Shown: one piece after another, positions 28,688 to 53,641 of the stretch
Position numbering within the stretch: the first letter of the stretch is position 1
Layout: every line of letters starts with the position of its first letter
Assembly (NCBI GenBank): GCA_026390795.1
Contig: JAPLFG010000001.1
Span: 310,001-374,000 of the forward strand
Length of the DNA: 64,000 nt
Source: Ignavibacteriales bacterium
GTDB lineage: Bacteria; Bacteroidota; Ignavibacteria; Ignavibacteriales; Melioribacteraceae
Direction: 5' to 3'
The notes under the pieces: model-generated
What the model was told of the DNA's origin: nothing
What the model saw: the letters and a program-made list of their open reading frames with translations, nothing else
Databases searched by the model: none
Program-made: the position numbers and the translations under genes

Positions 28688-30682
28688 CTAATTCATATTT
28701 GCAGTTTGTGACTGCAATTTCTTGGGAAGTCTTATAGTGAAAGTTGTTCCCTTTCCATCAACACTTTTAACTTTTATATCACCATTATGCATTTTAATAA
28801 TTCCGTATGTTATTGCTAATCCAAGACCTGTGCCTTTTCCTATTTTTTTTGTAGTAAAAAATGGAGTAAATATTTTATTTAAATTTTCTTCCGGAATTCC
28901 ACATCCTGTATCAATGATGTCAACAATTACATTTTCATTACTATTAAGAACATTTACGGTCACTAGTTTAATCGGACTAGATTCAATTGCTTCACACGCA
29001 TTTACAATGAGGTTCAGAAAGACTTGCTTTAACTGATCAGCATCACCTTCAATTTTCAATTCATCCGATAGTTCATTTAATGAGAAAGAAATCTTAAAGT
29101 AATCTGGATTTGCTTTTAAAGTCTTGATAATTGTCGAGATCATTTCTGCAAGATCCACTGTCGATATTTTTATCTTTCCTTGACGGGCAAAATTGAGGAG
29201 ATTTGAGACAATATTTTTACATCTTGTTGCTTCATCCATAATAAGTCTTAAATCATCGCTGCTCTGTTGATCACCGGCATTTTTATCAATTTTTCTCCTC
29301 AACATTGAAGCGTATAACATTATTGAACCGAGCGGATTGTTAATTTCATGTGCAACGCCAGCTGCCAACTGTCCAATTGATGCAAGTTTCTCAGCGCTAT
29401 GAAGTTGAACTTGTGTTTCCTTCAACTCTTGATATGCAAGTTCCAACTTATCTATTAAAAAGGGTAAACACATATCTTCTTCCGCTAGGTCTTTTGCAAT
29501 TGCTATTGCATACTCGCGGCATGTTGGATATCCACACGAACCGCAATTAAGTTCGTCTGTTTTAGAGAATTTATTTGTACTCGTGAGAATTGCCTTTATA
29601 TCTTCTTCGCTTGGCATTGGGCGCCGTTGGCTCTTTGAGTGGAACTCACGAGTTAAATCAATCTCGCGGCTATTGTATAAATTACTTTTCCAAACATTTT
29701 TATCAAACGCATTTATATTATCGTTTATAAAACCAATTACTTTTTCTCTGCGAGAATAGTAATTTAGATCAGAATCAATTGCGGGACCGTTGATGCAGCC
29801 TTCACAAAAAAGAATATCGATGAATTTCGATTTTAAATTCCCATTTTGAATTTCATCCATAATCTCAACTACTCTGTTTTTTCCTTCAACTACTATAATT
29901 TCTTTATGAAGTATATCACTGGAGATATTTGCCGTTTTCAACAATCCGCCCGTCAACGGGAATGATTTACCCATGTAAGCATGCGGAGCGTCAAGTTCTG
30001 TTTCCATCAATTCAGATATGTCGATATGAAGCGTTTCAAAAATTTCTTTTAATTCTTTGAATGTGAGAACTGCGTCAATCACCCCAATCACTTCATCATC
30101 TATATATTCACTTTTCTTTGCAACACAAGGACCTATGAAGACGATTTTTGTTTCATTGCCAAAATTTTTCTTGATGTACCGTCCCATTGCGATCATTGGT
30201 GAAACAACTTTTGCCAGATTAGGAACAATTTCCGGATAATATTTTTCGATCAAATTATAAACTGCAGGACATGGCGAACTAATAATTGTTCTATCGTCGG
30301 TGTGATCAAAATATTTTGTGTATAAGTCGCTTACCAAATCTGCACCAAAAGCAGCTTCCATCACTGAATGGAATCCAATCCTTTTCAGCCCGGATGCAAC
30401 TTTGGAATAATTTAGAGGAAAAGATGACGGAAACGATGGAGCCAGTATAGCAACGGCTTTACCGTTAGGAATTATCTCAGTCAACACTTTGTCAATATCA
30501 TTTAAGATTTTTTTTGCGTTTTGTGAACAAACTTTCACACAATGACCGCAAACAATGCATCTTTCTTCGATCACTACGGCTTGACCATCTACAACACGGA
30601 TAGCTCGTGCTGGACATTCTCTAATGCAAGAGTAACATCTTTTACACCGCTGACCTATGGTACTAACTATTCCATGTGACAT
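28688..30682 (-). CDS. Sensory [FeFe]-hydrogenase fused to histidine kinase (664 aa)
   Basis: Four modules in one chain. A 2x[4Fe-4S] ferredoxin domain (C13/16/19/23 and C42/45/48/52); an [FeFe]-hydrogenase large-subunit domain (about 70-345); a [4Fe-4S] FeS domain with C380, C383, C388, C405; and HisKA plus HATPase_c (His445 in GVAHEINNPLGS, G1 DTGCGIPEENL, G2 GTGLGLAITYG). The L1 loop reads SSPCPA: the proton-relay Cys is Pro137 but C138 is kept, as are C186, C293 and C296, so an H-cluster can still bind. This fits histidine-kinase-linked (group C type) sensory hydrogenases. No membrane helices: cytosolic hydrogen or redox sensor. Confidence 0.92.
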   Translation of the reverse strand: MSHGIVSTIGQRCKRCYSCIRECPARAIRVVDGQAVVIEERCIVCGHCVKVCSQNAKKILNDIDKVLTEIIPNGKAVAILAPSFPSSFPLNYSKVASGLKRIGFHSVMEAAFGADLVSDLYTKYFDHTDDRTIISSPCPAVYNLIEKYYPEIVPNLAKVVSPMIAMGRYIKKNFGNETKIVFIGPCVAKKSEYIDDEVIGVIDAVLTFKELKEIFETLHIDISELMETELDAPHAYMGKSFPLTGGLLKTANISSDILHKEIIVVEGKNRVVEIMDEIQNGNLKSKFIDILFCEGCINGPAIDSDLNYYSRREKVIGFINDNINAFDKNVWKSNLYNSREIDLTREFHSKSQRRPMPSEEDIKAILTSTNKFSKTDELNCGSCGYPTCREYAIAIAKDLAEEDMCLPFLIDKLELAYQELKETQVQLHSAEKLASIGQLAAGVAHEINNPLGSIMLYASMLRRKIDKNAGDQQSSDDLRLIMDEATRCKNIVSNLLNFARQGKIKISTVDLAEMISTIIKTLKANPDYFKISFSLNELSDELKIEGDADQLKQVFLNLIVNACEAIESSPIKLVTVNVLNSNENVIVDIIDTGCGIPEENLNKIFTPFFTTKKIGKGTGLGLAITYGIIKMHNGDIKVKSVDGKGTTFTIRLPKKLQSQTANMN

Positions 30683-32413
30683 TTATTTACCGAGTAAAAT
30701 CTTTTTCCGATCAACATATTCAGTATGAAGAATTTCATGTGAGATATGACCATTGGGTTCTCCAAGAAATTCCTTGTACAATTTTTTAACCGATTCATTT
30801 TCGTGAGATCGTCTATGTTTCATTTTAGAATCGATTTCGTATAAAGCTTGAATGCGTTTCTCTACTTTTTTATTTTTTTGATGTATTGGCTGTCCGCCGC
30901 CATTGATACAACCACCGGGGCATGCCATCACTTCTATAAAATGATATTTTGAATTTCCATTTTCGATGTCGTCTAAAACTTTTCCAACATTCCCGATTCC
31001 GTTGACAACTGCAACATTTAATTCTAGACCATCAACTAAAACTGTACTCTCTTTAATTCCTGAATTGCCTCGTACATCAATCAGCTCAATATTGTCAAGT
31101 TCTTCACCAGATAATTTGAAGTATGCCGTCCTTAGAGCGGCTTCCATCACTCCACCGCTTGTACCAAATATTGCCGCAGCTCCGGTCGATTCTCCGAGAG
31201 GGCTATCAAATTCTTCTTCTGCCAGATCATTAAAATCAATCCCGGACATTTTGAATAGTCTAACTAATTCACGAGTCGTTAATACTGCATCAACATCCGG
31301 TATATGTTCTTCTGTTAATTCTGCTCTTGTTGATTCATATTTCTTAACTGTGCAAGGCATAATAGAAACTATAAAAATATCTTTCGGGTCAATGCCCATT
31401 TTTTTAGCATAATAAGTCTTGAGGAGGGCTCCTTCCATCTCGTGTGGAGATTTACACGAAGAAACATGATCTAATAATTGGGGGCGGTTTTGTTCAATAT
31501 ATTTTACCCAGCCCGGGCAACAACTTGTGAACATCGGCAAGGTCTTTCCAGATTGAATTCTATTAATTAATTCCGATGCTTCTTCTATGATTGTTAGATC
31601 GGCAGCAAAATTAGTATCAAAGACTTTTTTGAATCCAAGCCGTTTTAAACCGGTTATAATTTGACCCGTTACATTTGTACCGAGAGGTAAATTATATTCT
31701 TCTCCAAGAGATGCTCTAACAGCGGGTGCAATTTGAGCAACGGTAAATTTCTTCTTATTATTTATTGCGCTCATAACTTCTTTTGAATGACTCTTTTCTC
31801 TAAGAGCAGCAGTAGGACAGACAAGAATACATTGACCGCATAGAATACAATCGCTAACATTAAGTCCTTTATTAAATGGTGTCGTTACATTGCTTGTGAA
31901 ACCGCGATGTGTAAAATCTATGGCGCTTATTTTTTGAAGCTGTCCGCATACACGAACACATCTTCCGCATAAGATACATTTAGCCGGGTCACGTTCCATA
32001 GAAGGACTTGAGATATCAATAGCATGATCTTTCGTTTCGCCAACATAGCGGTGTTCCCTAATGCTGTACTGTTCTGCTAAATCTTGCAGCTCGCAATTTT
32101 TATTTCTAACACAAACCAAACAATCTTGAGGATGATTTTCTATCAGAAGTTCAATAATTGTTTTTCTAGCAATTCTAACTCGTGAAGAATTTGTCTCGAC
32201 TTTCATTCCTTGCATAACCGGGTAAGCACATGATGGTGTTAAGCCTCTCATACCATCAACTTCAACAACACAAAGTCTACAAGCCCCGGTGGGGAAATAC
32301 CCTTTCATATGACAAAGTGTTGGGATGTGAATACCAACAGACTTTGCCGCATCAAGAATTGTCATACCTTCTTCGGCTTTAATTTTTATATTATTTATGG
32401 TCAAATCAACCAC
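30683..32413 (-). CDS. hydA: [FeFe]-hydrogenase catalytic subunit HydA, set 1 (576 aa)
   Basis: Paralogue of the downstream HydA with the same layout: [2Fe-2S] ligands C34, C45, C48, C62; His-Cys3 cluster H94, C98, C101, C107; [4Fe-4S] clusters C146/149/152/156 and C189/192/195/199. H-cluster loops are classical: L1 TSCCPGW (C298 proton relay, C299 cluster ligand), L2 MPCTVKKYE (C354) and L3 ACPGGCINGGGQP. It lacks the roughly 25-residue N-terminal lead of set 2. It abuts the sensory hydrogenase gene without a gap and follows HydB by 19 bp. Confidence 0.95.
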   Translation of the reverse strand: MVDLTINNIKIKAEEGMTILDAAKSVGIHIPTLCHMKGYFPTGACRLCVVEVDGMRGLTPSCAYPVMQGMKVETNSSRVRIARKTIIELLIENHPQDCLVCVRNKNCELQDLAEQYSIREHRYVGETKDHAIDISSPSMERDPAKCILCGRCVRVCGQLQKISAIDFTHRGFTSNVTTPFNKGLNVSDCILCGQCILVCPTAALREKSHSKEVMSAINNKKKFTVAQIAPAVRASLGEEYNLPLGTNVTGQIITGLKRLGFKKVFDTNFAADLTIIEEASELINRIQSGKTLPMFTSCCPGWVKYIEQNRPQLLDHVSSCKSPHEMEGALLKTYYAKKMGIDPKDIFIVSIMPCTVKKYESTRAELTEEHIPDVDAVLTTRELVRLFKMSGIDFNDLAEEEFDSPLGESTGAAAIFGTSGGVMEAALRTAYFKLSGEELDNIELIDVRGNSGIKESTVLVDGLELNVAVVNGIGNVGKVLDDIENGNSKYHFIEVMACPGGCINGGGQPIHQKNKKVEKRIQALYEIDSKMKHRRSHENESVKKLYKEFLGEPNGHISHEILHTEYVDRKKILLGK

Positions 32414-32432
32414 TTCATTCTCCTACCAAAAT

Positions 32433-34418
32433 TTATTTAATACTTATTGCATCAAACCGGCAAGTCTCAAAGCAAATTCCGCACTTAATACATTTCACTT
32501 CAATAATTTGATGCGGCTGTTTTTTCTCTCCTATAATAGCTTCTGCCGCACATTTTTTAATACATAAACCGCAACCGCTGCAAAGTTCGGGGTCAATCTC
32601 ATATGTTAATAGATCTTTACAAACTTTAGCTTTGCATCTCCTCTCGAAAAGATGTTCTTCATATTCTTCTCTGAAGTATCTTAAGCCCGATAAAACCGGA
32701 TTGGGTGCGCTTTGACCAAGGCCACAAAGAGAAGTATCTTTAATTACATCTGCCAATCTTTGAAGATGTATTATACCCTTAAATCTTTGCAGCTGATCTG
32801 TCTTACTACCGTTATGAGCATAACTTACAGGGATTCGCTCTATTATTTCCAGCATCCTTTTTGTTCCTTCACGGCATGGAACACATTTACCACATGACTC
32901 TTCTTGAATAAAATTTAAAAAGAATTTAGCAATATCAACCATACATGAATCTTCATCCATAACAACGAATCCTCCCGATCCCATCATTGCTCCAACACTT
33001 TTCAAAGATTCATAATCAACTTTAGTGTCAAGGACGGAATCTGGCAAGCATCCGCCCGAAGGTCCTCCTATTTGTACAGCTTTAAATTTTTTTCCATTTG
33101 CAATTCCGCCGCCAATATCAAAGACTACTTTGCGTAAACTTATTCCCATCGGAACTTCAACTAGTCCGCTATAAGTAATATTTCCGCTCAGAGCAAAAAC
33201 TTTAGTCCCTTTACTGGTTGCGGTACCAATAGATGAGAACCAGGAGGATCCCCGGTTAATTACTGTTGGTACATTTGCAAAAGTTTCTACATTATTGATG
33301 ATAGTTGGGTTTTTCCATAATCCTTCGTCGGATGGATAAGGTGGGCGTGGTGAAGGCATACCGCGTTTTCCTTCTATCGAGGCGATTAGAGCAGTTTCTT
33401 CTCCGCAAACAAAAGCGCCTGCTCCTTTTTTTACTTTTAAGTCGAAGTCAAAGTCGCTATTTAAAATGTTTTCACCTAGTAATCCATACTCTCTGCATTT
33501 TATAATTGCATCATTAAGTCTCTGAATTGCTAAAGGATATTCGGCACGGCAGTAAATAAATCCCTTTGAAGCACCAATTGCGTAGGCACCTACAATCATT
33601 CCTTCAATAACTCTAAACGGATCACTTTCTAGAACGGACCGATCCATAAAAGCACCAGGATCACCTTCGTCAGCATTACAAATAATATATTTTTGCTCAG
33701 CATTTTTTTTGCCGGCTAATTCCCATTTTGTTCCGGTAGAAAATCCGCCGCCACCTCTTCCCCGTAATCCACTTTCTTTAACTTCATGAATAACTTCTTC
33801 AGGACTCATTAACCGTAAAACTTTATCCACAGCTTTGAATCCGCTAGCCGATATATATTCGTCTATCGAATTTGGATTAATTACCCCGCAATTTTCCAGT
33901 ACAACTTTTTGCTGATGTTTGAAAAATGGCACTTCAGAAATTGAACAAATATTTTCATCATTCTTACCGAAAGAACCTAAAAGTTTTTTCTCAAATATTG
34001 ATCCATTAACAATCGTAGTATTAATAAGTTGCGAAACATCTTTAGGTGTAATTTCGCAATAAGAAATTCTGTTTTTGCCGGGAAGTTTGATATCAACAAT
34101 CGGTTCTTTAGCACAATATCCAATACATCCTGTTGGTATGACTACAGCTTCTAATTTTAGTGAAGCAAGTTCAGCCTCAATTGCAATCTTTACTTTATCG
34201 GCACCGGAAGCCAAGCCGCAAGTTCCCATACCAATAAATATTAGGGGAATATCGTGATTGATATATCTAAGAGATTTATTTAAATCTTCATATTTCTTTT
34301 TACAGCCATTATCTTGATGGCATAACGGTCCTTCAAGACAGCACGCAATAAATATATCACATGGATTTTCTGGCGAATGCCAGCATTGATCACAACATTT
34401 TTCAAGAAAATTTTTCAT
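32433..34418 (-). CDS. hydB: HydB/NuoF-like flavoprotein, long form, set 1 (661 aa)
   Basis: Full-length HydB: a Cys-rich N-terminus (C8, C9, C12, C20, C26, C27, C33, C39); a thioredoxin-like [2Fe-2S]-type domain (C67 in GTCGLASGA, C98 and C102 in GCIGYC; only three of the usual four Cys stand out); the NuoF core with GLRGRGGGGFSTGTKW, CNADEGDPGAFMDR, GAFVCGEETALI and SCGKCVPCREG; and a C-terminal 2x[4Fe-4S] ferredoxin domain (CSGCGLCIKKC, CIKCGICFETC). The extra ferredoxin-like end fits an electron-bifurcating complex using ferredoxin and NAD(H). Overlaps HydC by 4 bp. Confidence 0.94.
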   Translation of the reverse strand: MKNFLEKCCDQCWHSPENPCDIFIACCLEGPLCHQDNGCKKKYEDLNKSLRYINHDIPLIFIGMGTCGLASGADKVKIAIEAELASLKLEAVVIPTGCIGYCAKEPIVDIKLPGKNRISYCEITPKDVSQLINTTIVNGSIFEKKLLGSFGKNDENICSISEVPFFKHQQKVVLENCGVINPNSIDEYISASGFKAVDKVLRLMSPEEVIHEVKESGLRGRGGGGFSTGTKWELAGKKNAEQKYIICNADEGDPGAFMDRSVLESDPFRVIEGMIVGAYAIGASKGFIYCRAEYPLAIQRLNDAIIKCREYGLLGENILNSDFDFDLKVKKGAGAFVCGEETALIASIEGKRGMPSPRPPYPSDEGLWKNPTIINNVETFANVPTVINRGSSWFSSIGTATSKGTKVFALSGNITYSGLVEVPMGISLRKVVFDIGGGIANGKKFKAVQIGGPSGGCLPDSVLDTKVDYESLKSVGAMMGSGGFVVMDEDSCMVDIAKFFLNFIQEESCGKCVPCREGTKRMLEIIERIPVSYAHNGSKTDQLQRFKGIIHLQRLADVIKDTSLCGLGQSAPNPVLSGLRYFREEYEEHLFERRCKAKVCKDLLTYEIDPELCSGCGLCIKKCAAEAIIGEKKQPHQIIEVKCIKCGICFETCRFDAISIK

Positions 34419-34948
34419 TCCGCATTTGCCAATTGTTCAATCTTATTTTTAGGTGTTTCTTCTTTCTTATATTTTGCCAAAATTTTTGAAATCTCTTTTA
34501 TTGTTGCCCGACCATAATAATCTTTGTTTATATTTATTACGGGAGCTATGCTGCAAGCGCCAATACATGCAACTGTTTCAAGCGTAAAGTTTTTATTACG
34601 GGTTGTCTGTCCGGCTTTTATTCCAAGTTCGTTCTCTAATGCTGTTAAAAGATTTGCCGAATTTTTAACATGACACGCAGTTCCTCTACAAACACGTATA
34701 ACATTCTTACCTAATGGTTTTAATCTGAATTGATTATAGAAAGTTGCAACGCCGTAAACTGAGCTAAAAGGAAGATTAATATATTCTGCAATTGCACGTA
34801 AATCGTCTTCAGGAAGATACCCGTATGCTTCCTGAACTTCTTGAAGAAGTGCTATTAAGTTGCTTCTATCATTGGGTGAATACTTTTCTAGGATTCCTTT
34901 TTTCATCACGATCTCAATTTGTTCGAAGATTTTTGTTTTAATTTGCAT
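34415..34948 (-). CDS. hydC: HydC/NuoE-like [2Fe-2S] subunit, set 1
   Basis: First gene of the ten-gene operon. NuoE-type protein: helical domain with LIALLQEVQEAYGYLPEDDLRAIAEYI, then ligands in RVCRGTACHV (Cys-x4-Cys) and VACIGACSIAP (Cys-x3-Cys). The frame begins at a TTG at 34960; the ATG at 34946-34948 is preferred, and a Met at 34906 (MKKGILEKYSPND) would also give a normal-length subunit. None has a good ribosome site, so the exact start is open. A Lys-rich tail after the cluster domain (KKEETPKNK) is extra. Confidence 0.92.
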   Translation of the reverse strand: MQIKTKIFEQIEIVMKKGILEKYSPNDRSNLIALLQEVQEAYGYLPEDDLRAIAEYINLPFSSVYGVATFYNQFRLKPLGKNVIRVCRGTACHVKNSANLLTALENELGIKAGQTTRNKNFTLETVACIGACSIAPVININKDYYGRATIKEISKILAKYKKEETPKNKIEQLANAE

Positions 34949-35026
34949 ATAAGATGCCAATAGATGTGGTTTATGAACCTCTTATTTCACCGTTAAACAA
35001 AATAAAATTCGGCTAGAATTGACTGA

Positions 35027-36624: not shown

Positions 36625-39600
36625 ATGCAATTATTATTCAATTCGGGGTTCAGATTGTTTGATGAAGAACTAAATACTCTACAAGCAGAAGCTTACGATC
36701 ACTTATGGAATGGCAGATTTCGTTTAGCATTAAATGCTGCTGAAAAGGTCTACCAGTCGCGTCCCGATGATAGTGAAGCTGCGATCTGTTACGCATGGGC
36801 ACTATTGGAAAATGGAAATCCTATAAAAGCAATGGATTATGCGAATCTATCTGTTGAATTAAAGGGAGATTCAATCAAAGCTCGTGTTTATCGGTCTTAT
36901 CTGCTTTACCGGATGAGCATCTTTGAAGGTGCAATTGCGGACACAGATCAATCAATTGATAAACAAAAAGAAATTCTTGCATGGACCTATTTAAATCGAT
37001 CTAAATCGTATGCCGGACTTCAAAAATTTGAAGATGCAAATGCCGCACTTGAACTAGCTCTCATAATAGATAACGGTAAAAATCCTTCTTGGAAAGAAAT
37101 GCGTGATTGGCTTGATCAAGCAAATCAAATCCGGACAGGTAAGATGTTGATCAACTCGAAGAATATTAATACAATATTGGAAAGTGCCGGGCAAGCAATT
37201 AAAGCCAAAGAATTTTGGTTCTCTCTTTATTGTGCTAGAAAAATTTTAGAGAAAAATAAAAACGACGAAGCGGAATTGATGGAATTAGAATCGATGCTTC
37301 ATCTTTTCCAACTTAAACCTGCATTGAAGAAAGCAGATTCATTAGCAAATAAGTATAAAAAGAATGAAAGATTTACTAGCATTCATAATGCATTAAAAAA
37401 ATTTTCTCAGCTGGAGCAGGAATCCGATGTAAAGACAGAACCGCAGAAAAGAATTTCACATGAACGAATGATCCGGGAACGATCACAATCTACTACTTCA
37501 TTTGCAGAAAATGATTATAAGACTGAATCATATCATTACCCGAACGATTTCGTTGATATTTATTCTTTAAAATTATTTGACGCGGTAGAAGAATCTAAAT
37601 CCGGTTCCCGTATTTATTGCAAAAGTTTTGCTAACTCAACACGAATAATTGCCGCAGAAATTATTTTTAATAATCTTTATTATAAAAAAGAAGATAAAAT
37701 CTTTAGCTGTTCTCTGGTTTGGTATCATAATGATTTTGAGATTGGTAGAAATAATTTTCAGATGAGTGTACTCAAAGCTTGGGACTCCGTTATATTCGTT
37801 CAATCTCTAAGTTCTGAACAATCTGAAGATTGGCAGTCCGGACAAGCACGCATTGAATTTTATGTTAACAATTTCAAAACCGGGGAAAAATTTTTCGGGA
37901 TAGGAAATAAAAATGTACGGGAAACTGACGAGAGATTCGACATTCCGGAAAAAAGAACATTTGATAAACAATTTGAGCAGAAGAAAATTGAGAGACCGTC
38001 AACTAATAACAAATCCCAACATACAACAAAATCGTTAGCGGAACTTCTTGAAGAGCTAGATCACTTTACCGGATTGGTTAGTATAAAAGAATCTGTTAAG
38101 AGTTTTGTCTCCTATCTTGAATTTCTGAAAGAGAGGAAACGACTCGGATTGAAAGCCGAAGAAAAAATTGCAATCAATGCGGTATTCCTAGGTAATCCCG
38201 GAACCGGAAAGACAACAGTTGCTCGAATGCTCGGAGATATTTTTTACGCAATGGGAATTCTTCCGAATGGTCATGTCGTTGAAGTTGACCGCTCTGCACT
38301 TGTAGGACAATTCATTGGAGAAACTGCTCAGAAGACAGAAAAACTAATTAATGATGCAATAGGCGGGGTCTTATTCATTGATGAAGCTTACACTTTGATT
38401 AAAAAAGGCGGTAGTCAAGATTTTGGTCAAGAAGCAATTGATATTCTTTTGAAACGAATGGAAGACCGCAAAGGAGAATTCGTTGTAATTGTCGCCGGCT
38501 ACCCCGAAGAGATGGAATCGTTTTTAAATTCCAATCCAGGACTTAGATCCAGGTTCAGCCAAACATTTGTTTTTGATGATTATTCTCCGGACGAAATGAT
38601 TCTTATTTTTAATCAGCTTTTGAAGAAAGAAGATTATGCAATTACTGAGGACGCGCAAGAATTATTGAAAAAAGAATTTATCTCGCTTTTCAAAAGCAGA
38701 GATAAATCGTTCGGCAACGCACGTCTTGTAAAAAGACTTTTTGATGAATCGAAAAGAAATCTTAGCAAAGTATGTTTGATGATACCGGAAGAGGAAAGAA
38801 CGAAAGAGCTAATAACAACTTTCAATGATGAAGTAATAAAGGCTACCCTTTCCAAAAGATCTACCAAAACAATTATTTTCCCTATTAACGAAGAATCCTT
38901 GAATGAAGCATTAAAGGAATTAGAAGACCTTGTCGGTTTAAATTTAGTCAAAAAAGAAATTGCGGATATGGTGAAACTTGCACGTTATTTTAATGAGCAG
39001 GGAGAAGATATTAGAAAAGTATTCAGCGAACATATTCTGTTTCTTGGCAATCCCGGAACAGGTAAGACTACTGTTGCGCGTATTTTTGGAAAAATCTATT
39101 CGGCACTTGGAATTTTATCAAAGGGGCACCTTGTTGAAACAGACCGGCAAGGTTTGGTTGCCGGTTACGTGGGGCAAACTGCAGAAAAAACTACTAGTCT
39201 AATCGATAAATCTCTCGGTGGAATGCTGTTTATTGATGAAGCTTACGCGTTGTTAAAGCCAAGTGATTCCGGTAGTGATTTTGGGAAAGAAGCTATAGAT
39301 ATTTTACTAAAGAGAATGGAAGATGACCGCGGTAAATTTGTTGTAGTAGCCGCAGGATATACCGACGAAATGTTGAATTTTGTATCAGGTAATCCCGGTA
39401 TACAATCGCGGTTCAGTAAATCATTCACCTTTGAAGACTACTCCCCTACTGAACTAATGGAAATTGTGAACAGAACATTAATTAGAGAGAAAAAAAATAT
39501 ATCAAAAGAAGCTGAAGAAAAATTGCAGAAACATTTTGATGAATTGTATAAGAACCGAGATAAAAAATTTGGTAATGCGCGTATTGTTAGAAATATTCTT

Positions 39601-40566
39601 GAATCCGTAAAACAAAAAATGCTGCTCAGACTTTCCGACATTCCGACAGAAGAACGAAGTGAAGAGAAAGTTAACACAATAGAACTTAGCGATATAAACG
39701 AAGTTCTAAACCGTGATGTGGAGGCAAAACATTTTGATGTTCAAGGTGACCCGCTCAAACTTCAAGAATATATTGATGAGCTTAACCAATTAATTGGACT
39801 CGATAACGTAAAACGTGATATCTACAAATTGATCAGTTTTGCAAAAATATCACAGTTGAAAAAAGAACGTGGTCTGCAATCGGTTGACCGCAATTTGCAT
39901 TCTGTTTTTATTGGCAATTCCGGTACAGGGAAAAAATTAGTGGCAAAACTGATGAGCAAAATATTTAAAGAACTTGGTATACTGCATAAGGATCACATTG
40001 TTGAAGTTGACCGTGCCGATCTTGTTGCCGGTTATCAAGGTCAAACGGCTGTAAAAACCGATAAAATAATCCAACAAGCACTCGATGGTACACTCATTAT
40101 TAAGGATGCTCATAATTTATTCTCCGATGAGAATAATTACGGTCAGGAAGCAATAGAAATGATATTGAAACGGATGCACGATTTTAAAGGAAGATTTTTT
40201 GTTATACTTACAAGTCAAAGCGAAAAGATGAAATCCGTTCTTAAATCAAATCCTGGTTTGTCGGCTTATTTTCCTAATGTTTTTAATTTCGATGATTATT
40301 CTCCAATGCAGCTACTTTGCATAGCCGCCGATATTGCAGAGAAAAATGGGTACGCTCTTGATGAAGGTGCTTTGCAAGAATTGCTTGACCGATTCGAGCA
40401 ACTCGTCGAAAAACACGAAAAGAATTTTGATAACGGAAACCTGGCAAAAAACATTTTATACTCGGCAATTACAAATCAAGAAGAAAGAATATTTAACATC
40501 TTCGAACAAGATGATGTTGATTTGAAAACCATTACACTTGAAGACGTTCAAAAAATCAAGATCTAA
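36625..40566 (+). CDS. TPR protein with three CbxX/CfxQ-type AAA+ modules (1313 aa)
   Basis: Residues about 10-260 are TPR-like helical repeats; about 310-435 form a beta-rich domain I do not recognise (WYHNDFEIGRNNFQMS, ARIEFYVNN); then three AAA+ modules. Module 1: Walker A GNPGTGKTT (523), Walker B LFIDEAY, Arg finger region GLRSRFS. Module 2: the same motifs (Walker A at 808, GIQSRFS). Module 3: GNSGTGKKL (1097), Walker B altered to IIKDAH (K1160) and the Arg position changed to GLSAYFP, so probably no hydrolysis. CbxX-type ATPases remodel protein complexes (Rubisco activase, EccA). The client is unknown. Confidence 0.88.
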   Translation: MQLLFNSGFRLFDEELNTLQAEAYDHLWNGRFRLALNAAEKVYQSRPDDSEAAICYAWALLENGNPIKAMDYANLSVELKGDSIKARVYRSYLLYRMSIFEGAIADTDQSIDKQKEILAWTYLNRSKSYAGLQKFEDANAALELALIIDNGKNPSWKEMRDWLDQANQIRTGKMLINSKNINTILESAGQAIKAKEFWFSLYCARKILEKNKNDEAELMELESMLHLFQLKPALKKADSLANKYKKNERFTSIHNALKKFSQLEQESDVKTEPQKRISHERMIRERSQSTTSFAENDYKTESYHYPNDFVDIYSLKLFDAVEESKSGSRIYCKSFANSTRIIAAEIIFNNLYYKKEDKIFSCSLVWYHNDFEIGRNNFQMSVLKAWDSVIFVQSLSSEQSEDWQSGQARIEFYVNNFKTGEKFFGIGNKNVRETDERFDIPEKRTFDKQFEQKKIERPSTNNKSQHTTKSLAELLEELDHFTGLVSIKESVKSFVSYLEFLKERKRLGLKAEEKIAINAVFLGNPGTGKTTVARMLGDIFYAMGILPNGHVVEVDRSALVGQFIGETAQKTEKLINDAIGGVLFIDEAYTLIKKGGSQDFGQEAIDILLKRMEDRKGEFVVIVAGYPEEMESFLNSNPGLRSRFSQTFVFDDYSPDEMILIFNQLLKKEDYAITEDAQELLKKEFISLFKSRDKSFGNARLVKRLFDESKRNLSKVCLMIPEEERTKELITTFNDEVIKATLSKRSTKTIIFPINEESLNEALKELEDLVGLNLVKKEIADMVKLARYFNEQGEDIRKVFSEHILFLGNPGTGKTTVARIFGKIYSALGILSKGHLVETDRQGLVAGYVGQTAEKTTSLIDKSLGGMLFIDEAYALLKPSDSGSDFGKEAIDILLKRMEDDRGKFVVVAAGYTDEMLNFVSGNPGIQSRFSKSFTFEDYSPTELMEIVNRTLIREKKNISKEAEEKLQKHFDELYKNRDKKFGNARIVRNILESVKQKMLLRLSDIPTEERSEEKVNTIELSDINEVLNRDVEAKHFDVQGDPLKLQEYIDELNQLIGLDNVKRDIYKLISFAKISQLKKERGLQSVDRNLHSVFIGNSGTGKKLVAKLMSKIFKELGILHKDHIVEVDRADLVAGYQGQTAVKTDKIIQQALDGTLIIKDAHNLFSDENNYGQEAIEMILKRMHDFKGRFFVILTSQSEKMKSVLKSNPGLSAYFPNVFNFDDYSPMQLLCIAADIAEKNGYALDEGALQELLDRFEQLVEKHEKNFDNGNLAKNILYSAITNQEERIFNIFEQDDVDLKTITLEDVQKIKI

Positions 40567-40591: not shown

Positions 40592-41317
40592 ATGTTAGAA
40601 TTACTGAATCTTGAAAAAATATTCGGCAGTTTTACTGCAGTTAATCGAATTAATTTGAAGATCAATAAAGGAGAACTTTTTGGTTTCCTTGGTCCTAACG
40701 GTGCCGGGAAAACTACTACGATTAAGATGATTGCAGGATTACTTTCACCTTCACATGGAAATATATTTTTGGACGGCATTGATGTCTGGGTTAAACCGAT
40801 CGAGTCTAAGATGAAAATCGGCTATATACCGGATCAGCCGTTTCTTTACGATAAATTAACCGGGAAAGAATTTCTTTATTTCAGCGGTGGACTTTATAAC
40901 CTGACAAAGGATAAGATAAAAAATAAGATTACTGAATTATCCGAGCAGTTAAAAATTGGAAGCTGGATTGATAAACGATCTGAGGAATATTCACAAGGAA
41001 TGAGACAGAGGATTGTAATTGCATCCGCATTTCTTCACGATCCCGAATTACTTATAGTTGATGAACCGATGATAGGCCTTGATCCACAGAGCGCTTTCGA
41101 TGTGAAAAAAATGCTTGCAGAAAAATCTAAGAACGGAACGACGATATTCATGTCGACTCATAGCTTAAATGTTGTAGAAGAAATTTGCACGCATGTTGGA
41201 ATTATTAACAACGGGAATATAATTTTTAACAGCAGCATCGAAGTTCTACACGATCTAAAACGTGAAAACAATCACAATCTTGAAGAACTTTTCATTCAAC
41301 TTACAAATGAAGAGTAA
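40592..41317 (+). CDS. ABC transporter ATP-binding protein
   Basis: Nucleotide-binding subunit of an ABC exporter of the CcmA/ABC-2 class. Walker A GPNGAGKTTT (about residue 32), Q-loop, signature EYSQGMRQR (C motif variant SQGMRQ), Walker B LLIVDEPMIGLDP and switch His in STHSLNVVEE. 241 residues, single domain. Its stop shares a base with the start of the permease gene (TAATG), so the two form one transporter. Substrate unknown. Confidence 0.94.
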   Translation: MLELLNLEKIFGSFTAVNRINLKINKGELFGFLGPNGAGKTTTIKMIAGLLSPSHGNIFLDGIDVWVKPIESKMKIGYIPDQPFLYDKLTGKEFLYFSGGLYNLTKDKIKNKITELSEQLKIGSWIDKRSEEYSQGMRQRIVIASAFLHDPELLIVDEPMIGLDPQSAFDVKKMLAEKSKNGTTIFMSTHSLNVVEEICTHVGIINNGNIIFNSSIEVLHDLKRENNHNLEELFIQLTNEE

Positions 41318-43005
41318 TGAAGCAAATTCTTCACATACTGAAATTCAAATTAATTGCTTTTCTAAGACTCGATACGAAAGCTACATTCAACAGCATTGTT
41401 AAAAGTTTCGGCAGCAGCTTAATCTACATCGCATTCGCGGTCGGTGGTTTTTTATTTGTCCAAAGATTATTCCATTTTCTCCTGGTTGATATAAAAGTCG
41501 GCTTGTTTTTATTGCATGAATTCATCTCTATGATTCTATTTATATTTTTTATTTCGGTTAATGTTGGAAATATTATAGTGTCATACTCAACACTTTACAA
41601 ATCGAGTGAAATATCTTTCTTGATTACAAAGCCAATTGCACCCGCAAAAATATTCACTATTAAATTCTTAGATAACTTTTTCTACAGTTCATCAACGCTA
41701 ATTATGTTGCTGATCTCACTTCTTGCCGGTTATGTAGTCTATTTTAAGCTTAGCATATGGGCATTTCTTCTTCTTGTTTTTAATTTCATCCCGTTAATGT
41801 TCAGCGCCGCATCGCTCGGTATTATAATTCTTTTAATAGTGATAAGATTAGCCAGTCGGTTTGGGATTAAAAAAGTGATTTATACTTTGATCTTTTCTTA
41901 TTTCCTTATCATCACTTTTTACTTCAATCTTAATTCTCCAAAAACTTTAGTAGCGTCAGTAATGAAATATTATCCGTTTCTCACAAAGGACATTTATCTT
42001 GGAAATTTGGTCTCACCATTAATTAAAATGTTTCCGAATAATTGGTTTGCACAATCAGCTTTCTGGCTATTAAACAATGACCTATTATTATCAATGGGAT
42101 ATCTAATATTACAAATTGCATTTTCTTTACTACTCTTTTCAATCGCGATTTATCTTGGCCACAGATGGTATTTCAAGACATGGCTCCTTAATCTAAAAAT
42201 GGTTTCGGATTTTACCTACAATCAGAAAAAGGGCAGAATATTTTTTAATTTGGAAAATAATTCATTTTTGAAACCACAGTCAGAATCAATAATTAAACGC
42301 GACCTCATAATGTTCATCAGAGAACCAAGCCAGTACATTCATTTTTTAGTTCTCCTTTTTTTAATCGCTGTTTTCATTTTTAGTGTTGCCGGAGTAAAAT
42401 TTGTAGGATTAGGTAATTATAATTTACAGACAATGATTTATTTATCCCTATTCATGTTTAATCTTCTTTTCATTTCCACTCTCTCACTCCGTTTTATTTT
42501 CCCTTTAATTAGTCTGGAAGGGCAAGCTTTTTGGAAATTGAAATCATCGCCTGTTCAGAATAAAATATTTCTTAAAAGTAAAATCACGATTTTCAGCTCA
42601 CTCATTTTATTAATTTCTTTGAGCTTGAGCTTCTTTTCAAATTACAAATTTGGGATTGTGCTGACGGTATTTTCTTCATTTATAACCTTAATAGCTGCAA
42701 TGGCTATAATCTCAATCAATTTTGGAATGGGAGGTATATACTCAAACTTCAGAGAAAAGAACGCAATTAGACTGTCATCATCTCAAGGCGCTTCTCTTTC
42801 TTTTTTATTCAATATTCTATATATGTTTTTTCTTGTGGTACTACTTTACAAACCATTGAGCGGATTATTTTTATCAATAATGCTAAATCAAAGATTTATT
42901 GTGAATAGTTTATTCTGGCCTGCAATTCTAATTGGACTTCTATCAATAATTATAGCCCTAACATTTTTTAAGATTGCTCTCAGTTCCATAAAAAGAGATT
43001 TTTAA
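41317..43005 (+). CDS. ABC-2-type permease subunit (562 aa)
   Basis: Highly hydrophobic protein with about twelve membrane helices in two groups (residues 20-290 and 345-555) separated by a polar cytoplasmic loop (NQKKGRIFFNLENNS, then IKRDLIMFIREPSQ). Partner of the ATP-binding subunit encoded directly upstream. It resembles the large undivided ABC exporter permeases of Chlorobiota/Firmicutes; cargo cannot be predicted. It ends 8 bp before the convergent SDR gene. Confidence 0.82.
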   Translation: MKQILHILKFKLIAFLRLDTKATFNSIVKSFGSSLIYIAFAVGGFLFVQRLFHFLLVDIKVGLFLLHEFISMILFIFFISVNVGNIIVSYSTLYKSSEISFLITKPIAPAKIFTIKFLDNFFYSSSTLIMLLISLLAGYVVYFKLSIWAFLLLVFNFIPLMFSAASLGIIILLIVIRLASRFGIKKVIYTLIFSYFLIITFYFNLNSPKTLVASVMKYYPFLTKDIYLGNLVSPLIKMFPNNWFAQSAFWLLNNDLLLSMGYLILQIAFSLLLFSIAIYLGHRWYFKTWLLNLKMVSDFTYNQKKGRIFFNLENNSFLKPQSESIIKRDLIMFIREPSQYIHFLVLLFLIAVFIFSVAGVKFVGLGNYNLQTMIYLSLFMFNLLFISTLSLRFIFPLISLEGQAFWKLKSSPVQNKIFLKSKITIFSSLILLISLSLSFFSNYKFGIVLTVFSSFITLIAAMAIISINFGMGGIYSNFREKNAIRLSSSQGASLSFLFNILYMFFLVVLLYKPLSGLFLSIMLNQRFIVNSLFWPAILIGLLSIIIALTFFKIALSSIKRDF

Positions 43006-45615: not shown

Positions 45616-46167
45616 TTAGATCATTTCACTTAACAATTCAGGTCGCGGCTGAGCAATTACAATCTTATTCACAAGCAATCCTTTATCGGCAATTACTTTA
45701 GCACCGGATTCAACTGCGCTAGTAACAGCGGCAACTTCTCCGGTTAGTGTACAGAATGCTTTCCCGCCAAGAGCCATTGCTAATCGAATCTCAATAATGC
45801 GTACATTGGCGGCTTTAATTGCTGCATCGGCACCTTCTATTAGTGACGCCACGGAGAAGGATTCGATAATTCCCAATGCTTCAAGAAGTGTAACATCTGA
45901 GTGACCTGACAAAGCCGGAAAAATATCGGGATGAACATTTGGGATTACAAAAGTATCAATAACAGCAAAATCAATTTGATTAACCGCAGCATCAACCGAT
46001 GATTGAACAGCAGCGACATCTCCGCCGATAAGAACAATATATTTTCCCGAACAAATTGTACGGGAGAGAATTAATTCAACTTGAGATGTCTTCAACATAA
46101 TATCAGCCGCCTGCATACCGGCCGCAATGCTTGTCATTTCGATTAAGCCTAGAGAATTCATTTCCAT
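45616..46167 (-). CDS. Tandem-BMC microcompartment shell protein (PduT-like)
   Basis: Two BMC domains in tandem (residues 4-88 and 97-180), beginning SLGLIEMTSIAAGMQAADIMLKTSQ and ALGIIESFSVASLIEGADAAIKAAN; such proteins form pseudohexameric trimers in the shell. The first repeat has RTICSGKYI, matching the position of the PduT cysteine that holds a [4Fe-4S] cluster in the pore (about Cys39). Together with the PduS-like protein encoded 57 bp upstream this suggests electron transfer across a shell. No other shell or enzyme genes of a microcompartment are in the window. Confidence 0.93.
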   Translation of the reverse strand: MEMNSLGLIEMTSIAAGMQAADIMLKTSQVELILSRTICSGKYIVLIGGDVAAVQSSVDAAVNQIDFAVIDTFVIPNVHPDIFPALSGHSDVTLLEALGIIESFSVASLIEGADAAIKAANVRIIEIRLAMALGGKAFCTLTGEVAAVTSAVESGAKVIADKGLLVNKIVIAQPRPELLSEMI

Positions 46168-46224
46168 TATTGATACCTTTCAATTAATCATTGCGTAATT
46201 AGTTATAACACAACGCGAACAATT

Positions 46225-47538
46225 TTATTTTGAAATTTTGATATACTCATCAGAAATATGCGTCACTCTACCACTAATTGAAGAATGAATTTTTGCTCCA
46301 AGTTTTCCTTCTTCAATATCAGCAATCAATGTTCCTTCAAGTACATTGTCACCGAGTCTAACAATTGGTTTCGCCGCAATTCCGATATGCTGTTTCAACA
46401 CAATTATAACTTGTGAAACATCCGGCGATTTATTTACAAATGGTGTATGCGCATCATATTTTAAAACATCAATTCGTTTCATCAATTGTTTTAGTGGAAC
46501 GCGTCTCCCTTCTTTAATTGGATGTACTTTTACCGGTTTTTGTTGTTCGTATCTGGTTCCCAATTTTTTATTTTCAACTTTTCCTTGATCGCATGCTTCG
46601 CGAGGATATAAATCTTCCGGACACGCGTATAAAGAACACAAGCCGCAAGAACAACAGAGATCGGCATATTGATTCCACACGGCGCTTCCAGTTGTAGAGA
46701 ATCCGAGCGACCGCATAACTTTATGAGGCTGAACATCATAACCTAAAAGGTAACGAGGACAAAACTCGGTACAATAACTGCATTGGTCGCATGCGGATTT
46801 GCCAATTCTATTTTTATCTTGAATTGGTCTCTTAGTTCTGTTTACAAGATAATGATCGAAAGGAAGAACAATAATTCCGGCAGTAGTTTTAGTTACAACT
46901 TCATCAAGATCAAAAGTAAGTTTCCCCATTAAAATACCGCTGACAAAAACTCCAAAATCGGAAACAGTGGCTCCGCCTGCATGAGCAATTAACTCTTTCA
47001 AACTTGTGCCGATAGGAACGAAAAACGATGACGGATTTTTGACACAGCCGGCAATACAAACAAATTTCTGTGTAACCGGTTTGTCTTCAACGGCTCTACA
47101 GATATTATAAAATGTTTCAACGTTGTTTACAACACAGCCGACATCAAGAGGTAAACCGTATGGGGGAATTAATCTTTTTGTTGCGGCATAAACTAGTTCG
47201 TATTCATCGCCGCTGGGATAGAAATCACCGAGCTGACAAGTTTCAATTTTACCGTTAGAATAATTTCTTTCGATCGCTTCAATTGCATCGGCATTTTTTG
47301 CTTTTATACCAAAGTAAGATTTTTTTGCAGAAGTTTGTTTGGTCATTAACTCTACGCCTTTAACAATCTCCGGAGCAAAATTTTTCATTAACTCAAAATC
47401 TTTATGAATGAGTGGTTCGCATTCGGCGCCGTTGACAAGAACAAATTCAACTTTCGATTTTGCTTTTACATGAGTCGGAAATCCAGCGCCTCCGGCTCCA
47501 ACAACACCTGCATCAAATATTTTTTGAACAAGATCCAT
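46225..47538 (-). CDS. PduS/RnfC-like iron-sulfur flavoprotein (437 aa)
   Basis: Electron-transfer protein of the RnfC/PduS family; PduS reduces cobalamin or moves electrons into microcompartments. N-terminal FMN/NAD domain with VVGAGGAGFPTHVK and VNGAECEPLIHKD, an SLBB-like part (GTSLKELIAHAGG), two [4Fe-4S] motifs (CDQCSYCTEFCP near 255, CCSCGLCSLYACP near 300) and a C-terminal barrel-sandwich domain with GRVTHISDEYIKI. No membrane helices. Paired with the BMC protein; its stop and start lie within a compact minus-strand series beginning with clpC. Confidence 0.92.
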   Translation of the reverse strand: MDLVQKIFDAGVVGAGGAGFPTHVKAKSKVEFVLVNGAECEPLIHKDFELMKNFAPEIVKGVELMTKQTSAKKSYFGIKAKNADAIEAIERNYSNGKIETCQLGDFYPSGDEYELVYAATKRLIPPYGLPLDVGCVVNNVETFYNICRAVEDKPVTQKFVCIAGCVKNPSSFFVPIGTSLKELIAHAGGATVSDFGVFVSGILMGKLTFDLDEVVTKTTAGIIVLPFDHYLVNRTKRPIQDKNRIGKSACDQCSYCTEFCPRYLLGYDVQPHKVMRSLGFSTTGSAVWNQYADLCCSCGLCSLYACPEDLYPREACDQGKVENKKLGTRYEQQKPVKVHPIKEGRRVPLKQLMKRIDVLKYDAHTPFVNKSPDVSQVIIVLKQHIGIAAKPIVRLGDNVLEGTLIADIEEGKLGAKIHSSISGRVTHISDEYIKISK

Positions 47539-50949: not shown

Positions 50950-53451
50950 TTACTCAACAGTTTCTTTCTCTTGATTATCTTGTTCCTCAGGTTCCGCTGT
51001 CTTACCGGCTACAAAATAAAGTTCTTCAGTATTTTTTTTATGCTTAACGACTATTTTATCACCTTCTTTGAAGTGACTTAGTAAAAGTTCTTCAGCTAAC
51101 GGATCTTCAACATATTTTTGAATTGCCCTTTTTAATGGTCTTGCTCCGAATTTTGGGTCAAATCCTTTATCTGCTAAAAATTCATTTGCAGATTTGTGAA
51201 GCTCGATACTCATCTTGTTATCGCTGATATTCTTAATCAAGTCTTTCATCTCAATTGAAATGATCTGCTTGATATCTTCCTTATCCAGGCTTCTGAAAAC
51301 TATAGTTTCATCGAGACGGTTAACAAATTCCGGGTTAAAGAGTTTTTTCATTGCATCTTCAACGGTATTTTTAAGATGAGAATACTGATCAGCTTCCGTT
51401 TCGCCGCCAAATCCAAATCCGCCAGTAGTTCGAATATCTCTTGTCCCAACATTCGAAGTCATTATAATAATTGTGTTCTTGAAATCCACTTTACGACCGA
51501 GACTATCTGTAAGAGTTCCGTCATCGAGAACTTGAAGGAGAATATTAAATACATCAGGATGAGCTTTTTCAATTTCATCAAAAAGAACAACAGAATAAGG
51601 TTTTCTTCTAACACGTTCTGTCAATTGTCCGCCTTCATCATAACCGACATAACCTGGAGGAGCACCAACTAGTCGGGATACAGCAAATTTTTCCATGTAC
51701 TCACTCATATCAATTCTAATAAGTGCATCCTCAGAGTCAAATAAATAACGAGCAAGTTCTTTGGCTAATTCTGTTTTACCAACGCCCGTTGGTCCAAGAA
51801 AAATAAATGTACCAATCGGTTTTGACGGTCTTTTTAATCCGGCACGCGTTCTTCTAATTGCTTTTGTTAGTCTCAAAACGGCTTCATCTTGCCCAACTAT
51901 TCTTCCCTTGAGAGCAGTCTCCATCTTCATTAATTTATCAGATTCAGCCTGAACAACCCTTGTAACAGGAATGCCGGTCATCATAGAAACAACCGTAGCC
52001 ATGTCATCTTCACTTACATCGTAAATGATATCTTTTGTTTTAGCATCCCATTCACGTTTAGCAATTTCCAGATCGGATTGAAGTGTTCTCTCTTTGTCAC
52101 GCAACCTAGCTGCTTCTTCATAATCCTGTTGTTTTACAACTTGAATCTTTAGTTGCTTAATTTTCTCAACTTCTTCTTCCAATCTCAATACTTCTTCTGA
52201 AACTGTGAAATTTCCCATATGAACACGCGATCCGGCTTCATCAAGAACATCGATGGCTTTATCCGGTAAATGACGGTCAGTTATATATCTCTCACTTAAA
52301 CGGACAGCAATTTCGATAGCTTGTTTTGAATAACGAACGTGATGATGTTCCTCATATTTAAACTTGATATGCTCAAGAATTTGAATTGTCTGGTCAACAG
52401 AAGGCGGTTCAACCATAACCTTTTGGAAACGGCGATCAAGAGCACCATCGGTTTCAATATATTTACGGTACTCATCTAGTGTAGTAGCTCCGATGCATTG
52501 TATATCGCCGCGTGCAAGAGCTGGTTTGAACATATTAGAAGCATCTAAAGACCCGGAAGCGCCACCGGCACCAACTATTGTATGTAGTTCATCAATGAAT
52601 AAAATAACATCATCCGCCTTCTCAAGTTCGGTCATTAGAGCTTTCATTCGTTCTTCAAATTGTCCACGGTATTTTGTTCCGGCTACCAAACCAGCTAGAT
52701 CAAGTGTAACAACTCTCTTCTCCTGTAAAATCCGGGGAACTTTCTTCTGAATTATTCTAAGAGCTAATCCTTCCGCAATTGCGGTCTTACCAACACCGGG
52801 TTCGCCAATCAACACCGGATTGTTTTTCTTTCTACGGCTTAAGACCTGCGCGACACGTTCAATTTCTTTTTCTCGTCCAATAACCGGATCAAGTTTATCA
52901 TCAATCGCTAATTTTGTGAGATCGCGACCAAAGTTATCGAGTACAGGAGTTTTTGTTTTGTCCTGCTTCTTTCCAGTTGCAAATTGAGGGGGTGTAGCAG
53001 CTTTTGATGGATCTTTACTGCTGAGAATGTTATTTAATTCTGCACGTGAGTTATCATACGTTAAATTAAATTGATGCAAAATCTGTGTTGCGATATTGTC
53101 TTCATCACGCAATAACGAGAGAAGTATATGTTCTGTTCCAATTACATCCGATTTATAAATCTTAGACTCAATTTGAGTGATCTTCAAAACTTTTTCGGCT
53201 TGTTTTGTCAACGGAATGTTTCCGATTGTCAAAGTTCCGCCTGAAGTTCTGACTGTATCTTCAATTGCCTTTTTTAACTTTACTAAGTCAACGTCAAGAT
53301 TACGTAGAATGCGTACGGCAACACCCTGTCCTTCTCTTATAATCCCAAGCAATAAGTGCTCGGTTCCAATATAATCATGCCCAAGTCTTAAGGCTTCTTC
53401 GCGACTTAATCTGATTACTTCCTGCACCCGTTCCGAAAAATTTCCTTCCAT
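50950..53451 (-). CDS. clpC: ATP-dependent Clp protease ATPase subunit ClpC
   Basis: Hexameric AAA+ unfoldase. Clp-N repeats (residues 1-140, with [19 protein letters not shown]), D1 ATPase with [13 protein letters not shown] and Walker [11 protein letters not shown]-domain coiled coil with UVR-like motif [15 protein letters not shown]2 with [12 protein letters not shown] and [14 protein letters not shown], and the C-terminal D2-small domain. The open frame starts at 53490; the ATG at 53449-53451 ([10 protein letters not shown]), with AAAGGAA seven bases before it, is the right start (833 aa). No mcsAB or ctsR genes are adjacent. Confidence 0.96.
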
Positions 53452-53641
53452 ATCATTTCCTTTATTATTCTTTATGTGTAAACAGCACACTTATTCAAAT
53501 GGTTTCCAATGCAAATATATAGATTGATTTTACTCATATCAAGGAACATCGGCATTGATGAATAAAGACGTTTGTTAAATTCAGAAATTGTAATAATGAA
53601 ATTGAATTGATATCTTGTATTTGGTTAATAAAGGAGAAATA

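Follow-up and report, generated by a model that had tools for sequence, protein, structure and literature searches.

Repeated, module-wise loss of catalytic motifs in a triple CbxX-type AAA+ protein of Ignavibacteriales

Why would an ATPase motor retain a module that has lost its catalytic motifs, and how are three AAA+ modules of one chain arranged into rings? These questions are raised by a gene of an Ignavibacteriales bacterium (Melioribacteraceae; assembly GCA_026390795.1), located in the 64,000-nucleotide stretch of contig JAPLFG010000001.1 (positions 310,001 to 374,000) that was analyzed here and is called the window. Its product combines a tetratricopeptide repeat (TPR)-like region, a beta-sandwich domain and three CbxX/SpoVK-type AAA+ modules, designated T1, T2 and T3 for the first, second and third module. 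An earlier note, made from the letters alone, had read T3 as a pseudo-ATPase and had proposed an asymmetric dimeric ring. The motif loss supports the former claim. The latter is opposed by the pattern of this loss among relatives: Walker and Arg-finger motifs disappeared together within a module, which favors rings of like modules.

Catalytic motifs of the three modules across the family

T1 and T2 of the window protein exhibited the motifs GNPGTGKT, FIDEA, SRF, GNAR and sensor-1 AGY, in line with the full Walker motifs and Arg fingers that the earlier note had described. In T3, GKK, KD and SAYF indeed stood for GKT, DE and SRF and, beyond that description, sensor 1 (TSQ in place of AGY) and sensor 2 were lost as well. 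GY in sensor 1 and a second Arg (sensor 2), given as the signature of the CbbX/SpoVK/EccA clade in PMC10659427, were present in T1 and T2 and missing from T3. Through T1 and T2 the window protein is a member of the CbxX/SpoVK/EccA clade. The dead T3 motifs are not due to a sequencing error since they are common to the close relatives L003 (91% identical) and L004 (89%), and T3 appears to be a derived pseudo-module since it clustered with intact T3 modules in the module tree.

The motif sample consisted of 99 open reading frames (ORFs) of more than 900 bits that started before residue 350 and reached residue 1290 of the window protein; 81 distinct ones remained after merging those with identical last 1000 residues. 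Contig-cut sequences (L068, L094, L099, L103), L011/L037 with an in-frame stop in T3 and proteins with 4-6 modules were dropped from it. A wider set of 121 rows comprised 107 distinct proteins, still with the tree-column-identical pairs L049/L157 and L052/L158. Excluded from it were L112-L116, L119 and L141-L144 for their different architecture, L128-L139 because the locus was cut, and L120, L147, L179 and L180 as second copies of other loci.

Four features were checked per module, namely Walker A, Walker B, finger and sensor 2; among the 81 near-full-length or module-complete proteins, T2 passed on all four in 81, T1 in 80 and T3 in 50. In the wider set T1 was intact in 106 of the 107 distinct proteins. 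T3, present in 105 of them, was intact in 62 and had lost both Walker and finger motifs in 41; the two intermediates were L014 (finger lost, Walker intact) and L153 (Arg kept, Walker lost). T3 alone was dead in 31 three-module proteins, every one of which kept the Walker and finger motifs of T1 and T2. Five further proteins (L121, L161-L164) combined dead T2 and T3 with a fully intact T1, T1 alone was dead in L075 and T2 alone in L171, and, of the two-module T1+T3 proteins, five had a dead T3 beside a complete T1. On a tree of T1+T2, a minimum of seven state changes was needed for T3, two for T2 and one for T1 (six for T3 on an earlier 81-row tree). Judged by their motifs, modules die as whole units, with T1 probably active in nearly all proteins and T3 frequently reduced to a pseudo-ring.

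Within the clade of the window protein (support 100), T3 was dead in 16 of 16 aligned members, which excludes a local mutation or an assembly error. Its intactness in 62 of 105 distinct proteins equally excludes a dead T3 as a design of the whole family. The earlier note had regarded relatives with an intact third module as a sign of local mutation rather than conserved design; such relatives indeed count against a family-wide design, whereas the degeneracy it described is conserved in all aligned members of the clade, so that they do not count against a clade-wide one.

The dead modules retained some characteristics of a nucleotide pocket. Of the 36 dead T3 in three-module proteins, 32 still had the Walker A Lys. 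Among the 16 members of the window clade, Lys or Arg had taken the place of the Walker B Asp in 14 and of the Walker A Thr in 12, so that both Mg2+-ligand positions of T3 tend to turn basic. We infer that the T3 pocket either is empty, with its charges balanced, or accommodates nucleotide without Mg2+. The first pore-loop residue was Tyr or Phe in T1 of all 81 proteins and in T2 of 66, the other 15 having His.

Register of Walker motifs and Arg fingers

An Arg finger in an AAA+ ring reaches over to the adjacent subunit and completes its ATP site. If like modules are neighbors, the Walker motifs and the finger of one module act at sites of one kind and would be expected to vanish jointly; if unlike modules adjoin in one ring, losses should pair across modules. 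Walker and finger states were concordant within the module in 310 of 312 cases. For the 98 three-module proteins, the homotypic register produced 2 mismatched sites out of 294 and each of the two mixed registers 78, and a mixed ring would leave five proteins without any complete site, homotypic rings none. Under eight combinations of motif definitions, homotypic mismatches ranged from 2 to 19 and mixed ones from 51 to 78, the homotypic register being lowest in all eight. Indirectly, this pattern fits homotypic rings. Coupling of Walker and finger states was not automatic, since it was broken in a sister CbxX subfamily that lacks the TPR/beta part and has 4, 5 or 6 modules per chain: the first module there no longer had the Walker B Glu (DN) or the two sensor residues, Tyr of sensor 1 and Arg of sensor 2, yet kept the finger Arg (6/6 Ignavibacteria chains). 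This pattern would suit a mixed ring, or a ring that binds ATP and does not hydrolyze it.

We propose, with slightly more belief than doubt, that the triple protein is a motor of the dedicated-chaperone type of the CbxX/SpoVK/EccA clade, built from six chains. Each module would most likely pack with the same module of the neighboring chains, as indicated indirectly by the motif co-loss, and the six chains would then form a tower of up to three stacked homotypic rings. The TPR-like and beta-sandwich domains may recruit a dedicated client, which T1 and T2, in keeping with their intact motifs, would thread or remodel with ATP, pulling by their pore loops. The T3 pseudo-ring would keep its fold and may contribute scaffolding and stability, a gate or a docking site without hydrolysis. 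The client may perhaps be tied to the co-encoded ABC exporter.

Several points weigh against this proposal. The finger Arg was replaced by Lys in nine proteins, and counting Lys as functional raised the homotypic mismatches to 11 of 294, with 69 for the mixed registers. With Walker A as sole criterion, the homotypic register gave 18 mismatches and the mixed ones 60 and 70, and the forward register left no protein siteless. Independent, well-supported contrasts numbered only six, of which on average 5.0 were concordant, 0.1 opposite and 0.9 without difference (sign test, median p 0.06); the T1 finger showed no difference in 6.0 of these 6 pairs on average, as predicted by homotypic rings. A mixed ring might retain an orphaned finger or Walker motif for the sake of ATP binding or allostery, and module counts of one, two and three do not discriminate, because all divide six. 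The AlphaFold2 (AF2) model, with a predicted TM-score (pTM) of 0.39, did not confidently place the modules relative to each other. In one further clade member, the same-genus gene L011 (L037: same numbers), which stands outside the module counts, T1 and T2 were whole and T3 was interrupted by an in-frame TAA near residue 1120 (numbering of the window protein). The stop reflects either an error in the sequence or the ongoing loss of T3; if real, it argues that this genome does not depend on T3.

The asymmetric dimeric ring of the earlier note, where two chains would make up one six-module ring with T3 at two inactive positions, has arithmetic on its side: three modules times two give six, and the beta domain accompanies one, two or three modules, all divisors of six. 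In such a ring, however, T3 would lend its finger to a T1 or T2 site and receive one from T1 or T2, so that its death should free one Walker set and one finger of T1 or T2, and both were kept in all 31 proteins with T3 alone dead. The mismatches in either direction argue in the same sense, as do the five T2+T3-dead proteins, which would possess no complete site although their T1 is fully intact. We consider this arrangement quite improbable.

The selective constraint on dead T3 bears on two further explanations. The ratio of nonsynonymous to synonymous substitution rates (dN/dS) was determined for 12 degenerate-T3 pairs and 4 intact pairs, with dS near or above 1 in many of them. For dead T3 it was 0.03-0.15 in all 12 pairs, a sign of purifying selection, and for the window T3 it amounted to 0.03 against L003 and 0.04 against L004, similar to T1 and T2. 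In several other dead-T3 pairs it was about twice that of T1/T2, and in the two dead clades compared the mean identity of T3 was 66% versus 78-87% for T1/T2, unlike in three intact groups. Neutral decay of a redundant, drifting T3 would be in line with this faster evolution, with its at least seven state changes and with the stop in L011/L037. The low dN/dS values argue against it, as do the full-length T3 of the other 16 aligned clade members and the Walker B replacement by Lys or Arg described above, which amounts to a shared non-catalytic chemistry; drift thus seems very improbable to us. In a less remote, still unlikely explanation, the rings of the hexamer would be just two, built by T1 and T2, and T3, folded as an AAA+ module at the C-terminus, would serve outside any ring for docking or in another accessory role. 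In dead T3 the lid and the C-terminal residues were best conserved and the pore-loop region was relaxed (G1139 in 13 of 31), which would fit such a domain, and co-loss of motifs within T3 would be expected equally. But 62 of the 105 proteins with a T3 have it as an intact AAA+ module, the fold of the window T3 was confidently predicted, and retention of the Walker A Lys suggests that the pocket still matters.

Domain layout, relatives and gene neighborhood

The features are collected in Table 1. Pfam found AAA and AAA_lid_6 three times each in the window protein, and the SpoVK, EccA and CbbX models of NCBIfam each matched it in three stretches. TPR matches had an E-value of 5e-5, under the gathering cut-off; with the threshold relaxed to E 0.5, TPR_2 was recognized in 55 of the 56 aligned proteins. 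AF2 was run with an alignment of 56 of the 64 collected sequences. The mean predicted local distance difference test score (pLDDT) was 89.1 for the TPR-like region with the beta-sandwich, most helix blocks of the former exceeding 90, and 84.7 for the three AAA+ folds, T3 included; the TPR and beta-rich parts that the earlier note had placed ahead of the modules were thus recovered.

Table 1. Features of the triple CbxX-type gene and the two genes that follow it (positions in the window)
Feature	Position	Strand	Evidence
TPR / beta-sandwich / triple CbxX-type AAA+ protein, 1313 aa	36625..40566	+	ORF + Pfam + NCBIfam
TPR-like helical region, residues 2-269	36628..37431	+	AF2 helices, TPR_2, structural matches to TPR proteins
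Beta-sandwich domain, residues 302-427	37528..37905	+	AF2; no Pfam family found
T1, CbxX AAA+ module + lid, intact motifs, residues 468-735	38026..38829	+	
T2, CbxX AAA+ module + lid, intact motifs, residues 753-1022	38881..39690	+	
T3, putative pseudo-ATPase CbxX module, predicted AAA+ fold + lid kept, residues 1043-1308	39751..40548	+	
T3 Walker A GNSGTGKK, Thr to Lys	39913..39936	+	
T3 Walker B DGTLIIKDA, Asp-Glu to Lys-Asp	40084..40110	+	
T3 Arg-finger position NPGLSAYF, Arg to Tyr	40249..40272	+	
T3 sensor-2 position FDNGNLAK, Arg to Asn	40426..40449	+	
ABC transporter ATPase, 25 bp downstream of the triple gene	40592..41317	+	Pfam, synteny
ABC_tran_2 (PF16949) permease	41317..43005	+	Pfam, synteny

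In a structural search with Foldseek, CbbX was the best match, followed by the two-ring AAA+ proteins Rix7, Drg1, NVL and p97 over two modules; these matches do not show the orientation of the modules, because the root-mean-square deviation was 17-29. The top PDB sequence matches were CbbX and EccA1. For the beta domain, an UNC119-like fold was considered (Foldseek E 1e-5 to 1e-4, target-normalized TM 0.34-0.45, 10-15% identity) and not adopted, so that only a beta-sandwich is claimed. The domain was aligned from every second sequence (33 including the window protein); the VIA-align rows spanned residues 9-266 and hence give no test of its UNC119-like fold.

The triple gene was single-copy in its own genome, where the only other match, weak with 28% over 163 residues, was a Clp-type ATPase at 50950-53490. 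A search for the same architecture, as suggested in the earlier note, found matches at E <=1e-80 in 112 of 133 genomes of the order, including a few to the multi-module subfamily or to two-module forms. Among the best 80 of 456 confirmed places, the named relatives belonged mostly to Melioribacteraceae, Ignavibacteriaceae and other Ignavibacteria. Of 247 genomes sampled across the phylum, 28 contained the beta domain, and in some of their proteins two beta domains stood in front of one (L142) or two (L141, L143, L144) CbxX modules with intact motifs. A FastTree tree of 148 modules divided those of the triple proteins into a T1, a T2 and a T3 group (supports 96, 95 and 100), and the triplication is therefore old. 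The two-module proteins L117, L118 and L123 were T1+T3 without T2 in this tree, where long branches meet among dead modules and render their placement uncertain; L165-L168 were likewise classed as T1+T3 by position-specific models. A literature search recognized no triple CbxX protein; subscription papers were mostly outside its reach, which leaves such an absence unproven.

Two kinds of related chains were observed besides. Proteins of 279 residues with two tandem copies of the beta domain and an N-terminal signal-peptide-like hydrophobic stretch were encoded at L145:4523-5359 and L146:40-876; Pfam gave no match for the one of L145. Members of the sister subfamily were L116 (=L106), L112, L113 (=L111), L109, L114 and L115, with a six-module chain of 1712 residues that could be a covalent hexamer; its Spirochaetia relatives L107 and L110 had four modules.

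The next ORF was a same-strand ABC ATPase in 32 of the 76 loci where it was visible, with gaps of -41 to 140 bp, and a permease of the ABC_tran_2 cluster then followed in 18 of 18 such loci with a visible second ORF. Pfam was run on the window genes, and neighbor families of the ABC pair at other loci were assigned by cluster. The pair stood beside 18 of 29 dead and 14 of 47 intact T3; it is conserved and not obligate, because it was found with both. A relative of the DUF2807 gene of the window was the upstream neighbor in 38 of 73 loci. In 9 of 73 (L061, L063, L065, L079, L089, L093, L097, L098, L105; Pfam on L061 only), a groEL-cluster gene preceded by groES was located directly upstream. 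In a paralogue group with intact T3 in all five members (L066, L072, L076, L077, L086), SpoIIE-phosphatase-cluster and SiaC-cluster genes were nearby in five of five and DUF6272-cluster genes in three. The neighbors may hint at a role in protein quality, assembly or signaling.

Elsewhere in the window, Pfam detected a fusion of a [FeFe]-hydrogenase-like domain, an Fe-S domain and a histidine kinase (HisKA, HATPase_c) at 28688-30682 (-), which adjoins a hydrogenase gene set at 30683-34960 and is possibly a hydrogen sensor kinase. At 45616-47538 (-), a protein with two BMC-domain stretches was found by Pfam beside a Complex1_51K/RnfC-like Fe-S protein; these are likely microcompartment genes.

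Comparison with known systems and implications

According to PMC10659427, characterized members of the CbbX/SpoVK/EccA clade are dedicated chaperones, EccA has TPRs ahead of its AAA+ part, and SpoVK, with a single AAA+ module, occurs only in sporulating Firmicutes. The triple protein shares with them the AAA and AAA_lid_6 modules, the GY sensor 1 and SRF finger of T1 and T2 and, with EccA, the leading TPRs; it differs by three modules per chain, another beta domain and one dead module. It is not SpoVK, its relatives being Ignavibacteria with three modules per chain; the 704 bits of TIGR02881 (cut-off 423) were summed over three stretches. A RuBisCO-activase role as for CbbX was rejected, PF00016 (RuBisCO large subunit) having no match in the own genome and matches in 5 of 14 control genomes. 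Anti-phage defense was set aside: the best stretches of the IetA and IteA models lay within the AAA modules, and IteA reached 46 bits against a cut-off of 510.

Multi-module ATPases are known from other systems. In Pex1/Pex6, tandem AAA+ modules form stacked rings with an inactive D1 ring, and N-terminal domains bind substrate or cofactors (PMC5762779). The triple protein resembles this case in its tandem modules, one of them dead by its motifs, and its N-terminal domains, and would do so in its proposed stacked rings as well; Pex1/Pex6 is a eukaryotic heterohexamer of two modules, whereas the triple protein has three, belongs to another AAA+ clade and carries the dead one C-terminally. For EccC/EssC of type VII secretion, PMC6954902 gives three tandem ATPase domains of unequal activity and a proposed three-layer hexamer. 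Unlike the triple CbxX protein, these ATPases are FtsK/SpoIIIE-like with a transmembrane part. As a check for an EccA-type role of the triple protein, the EccC model TIGR03925 gave two weak, below-cut-off matches in the own genome and none over the cut-off in 14 control genomes, hence no positive control. Dynein and midasin also have several AAA+ modules per chain, some inactive, but one chain makes one ring, with fingers between different modules; the co-loss pattern of the triple protein opposes such finger action.

It is not yet understood why many-ring ATPase motors retain catalytically dead rings, of which D1 of Pex1/Pex6 is an example. The interesting part of the present finding is the repeated, module-wise loss of catalysis. 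Tentatively, and with more doubt than for the motor itself, the family may represent a three-tier bacterial AAA+ tower whose rings were switched off singly, repeatedly and as units, with relatives of three, two and one active rings, the sister subfamily of 4-6 modules being the opposite solution, a covalent mixed ring. The co-loss register test offers a cheap, sequence-based readout of ring arrangement. With three, two or one active modules, at least one dead example for every module position, and a gene common in the order, the family constitutes a natural series in which the role of a dead ring can be tested with matched homologues.

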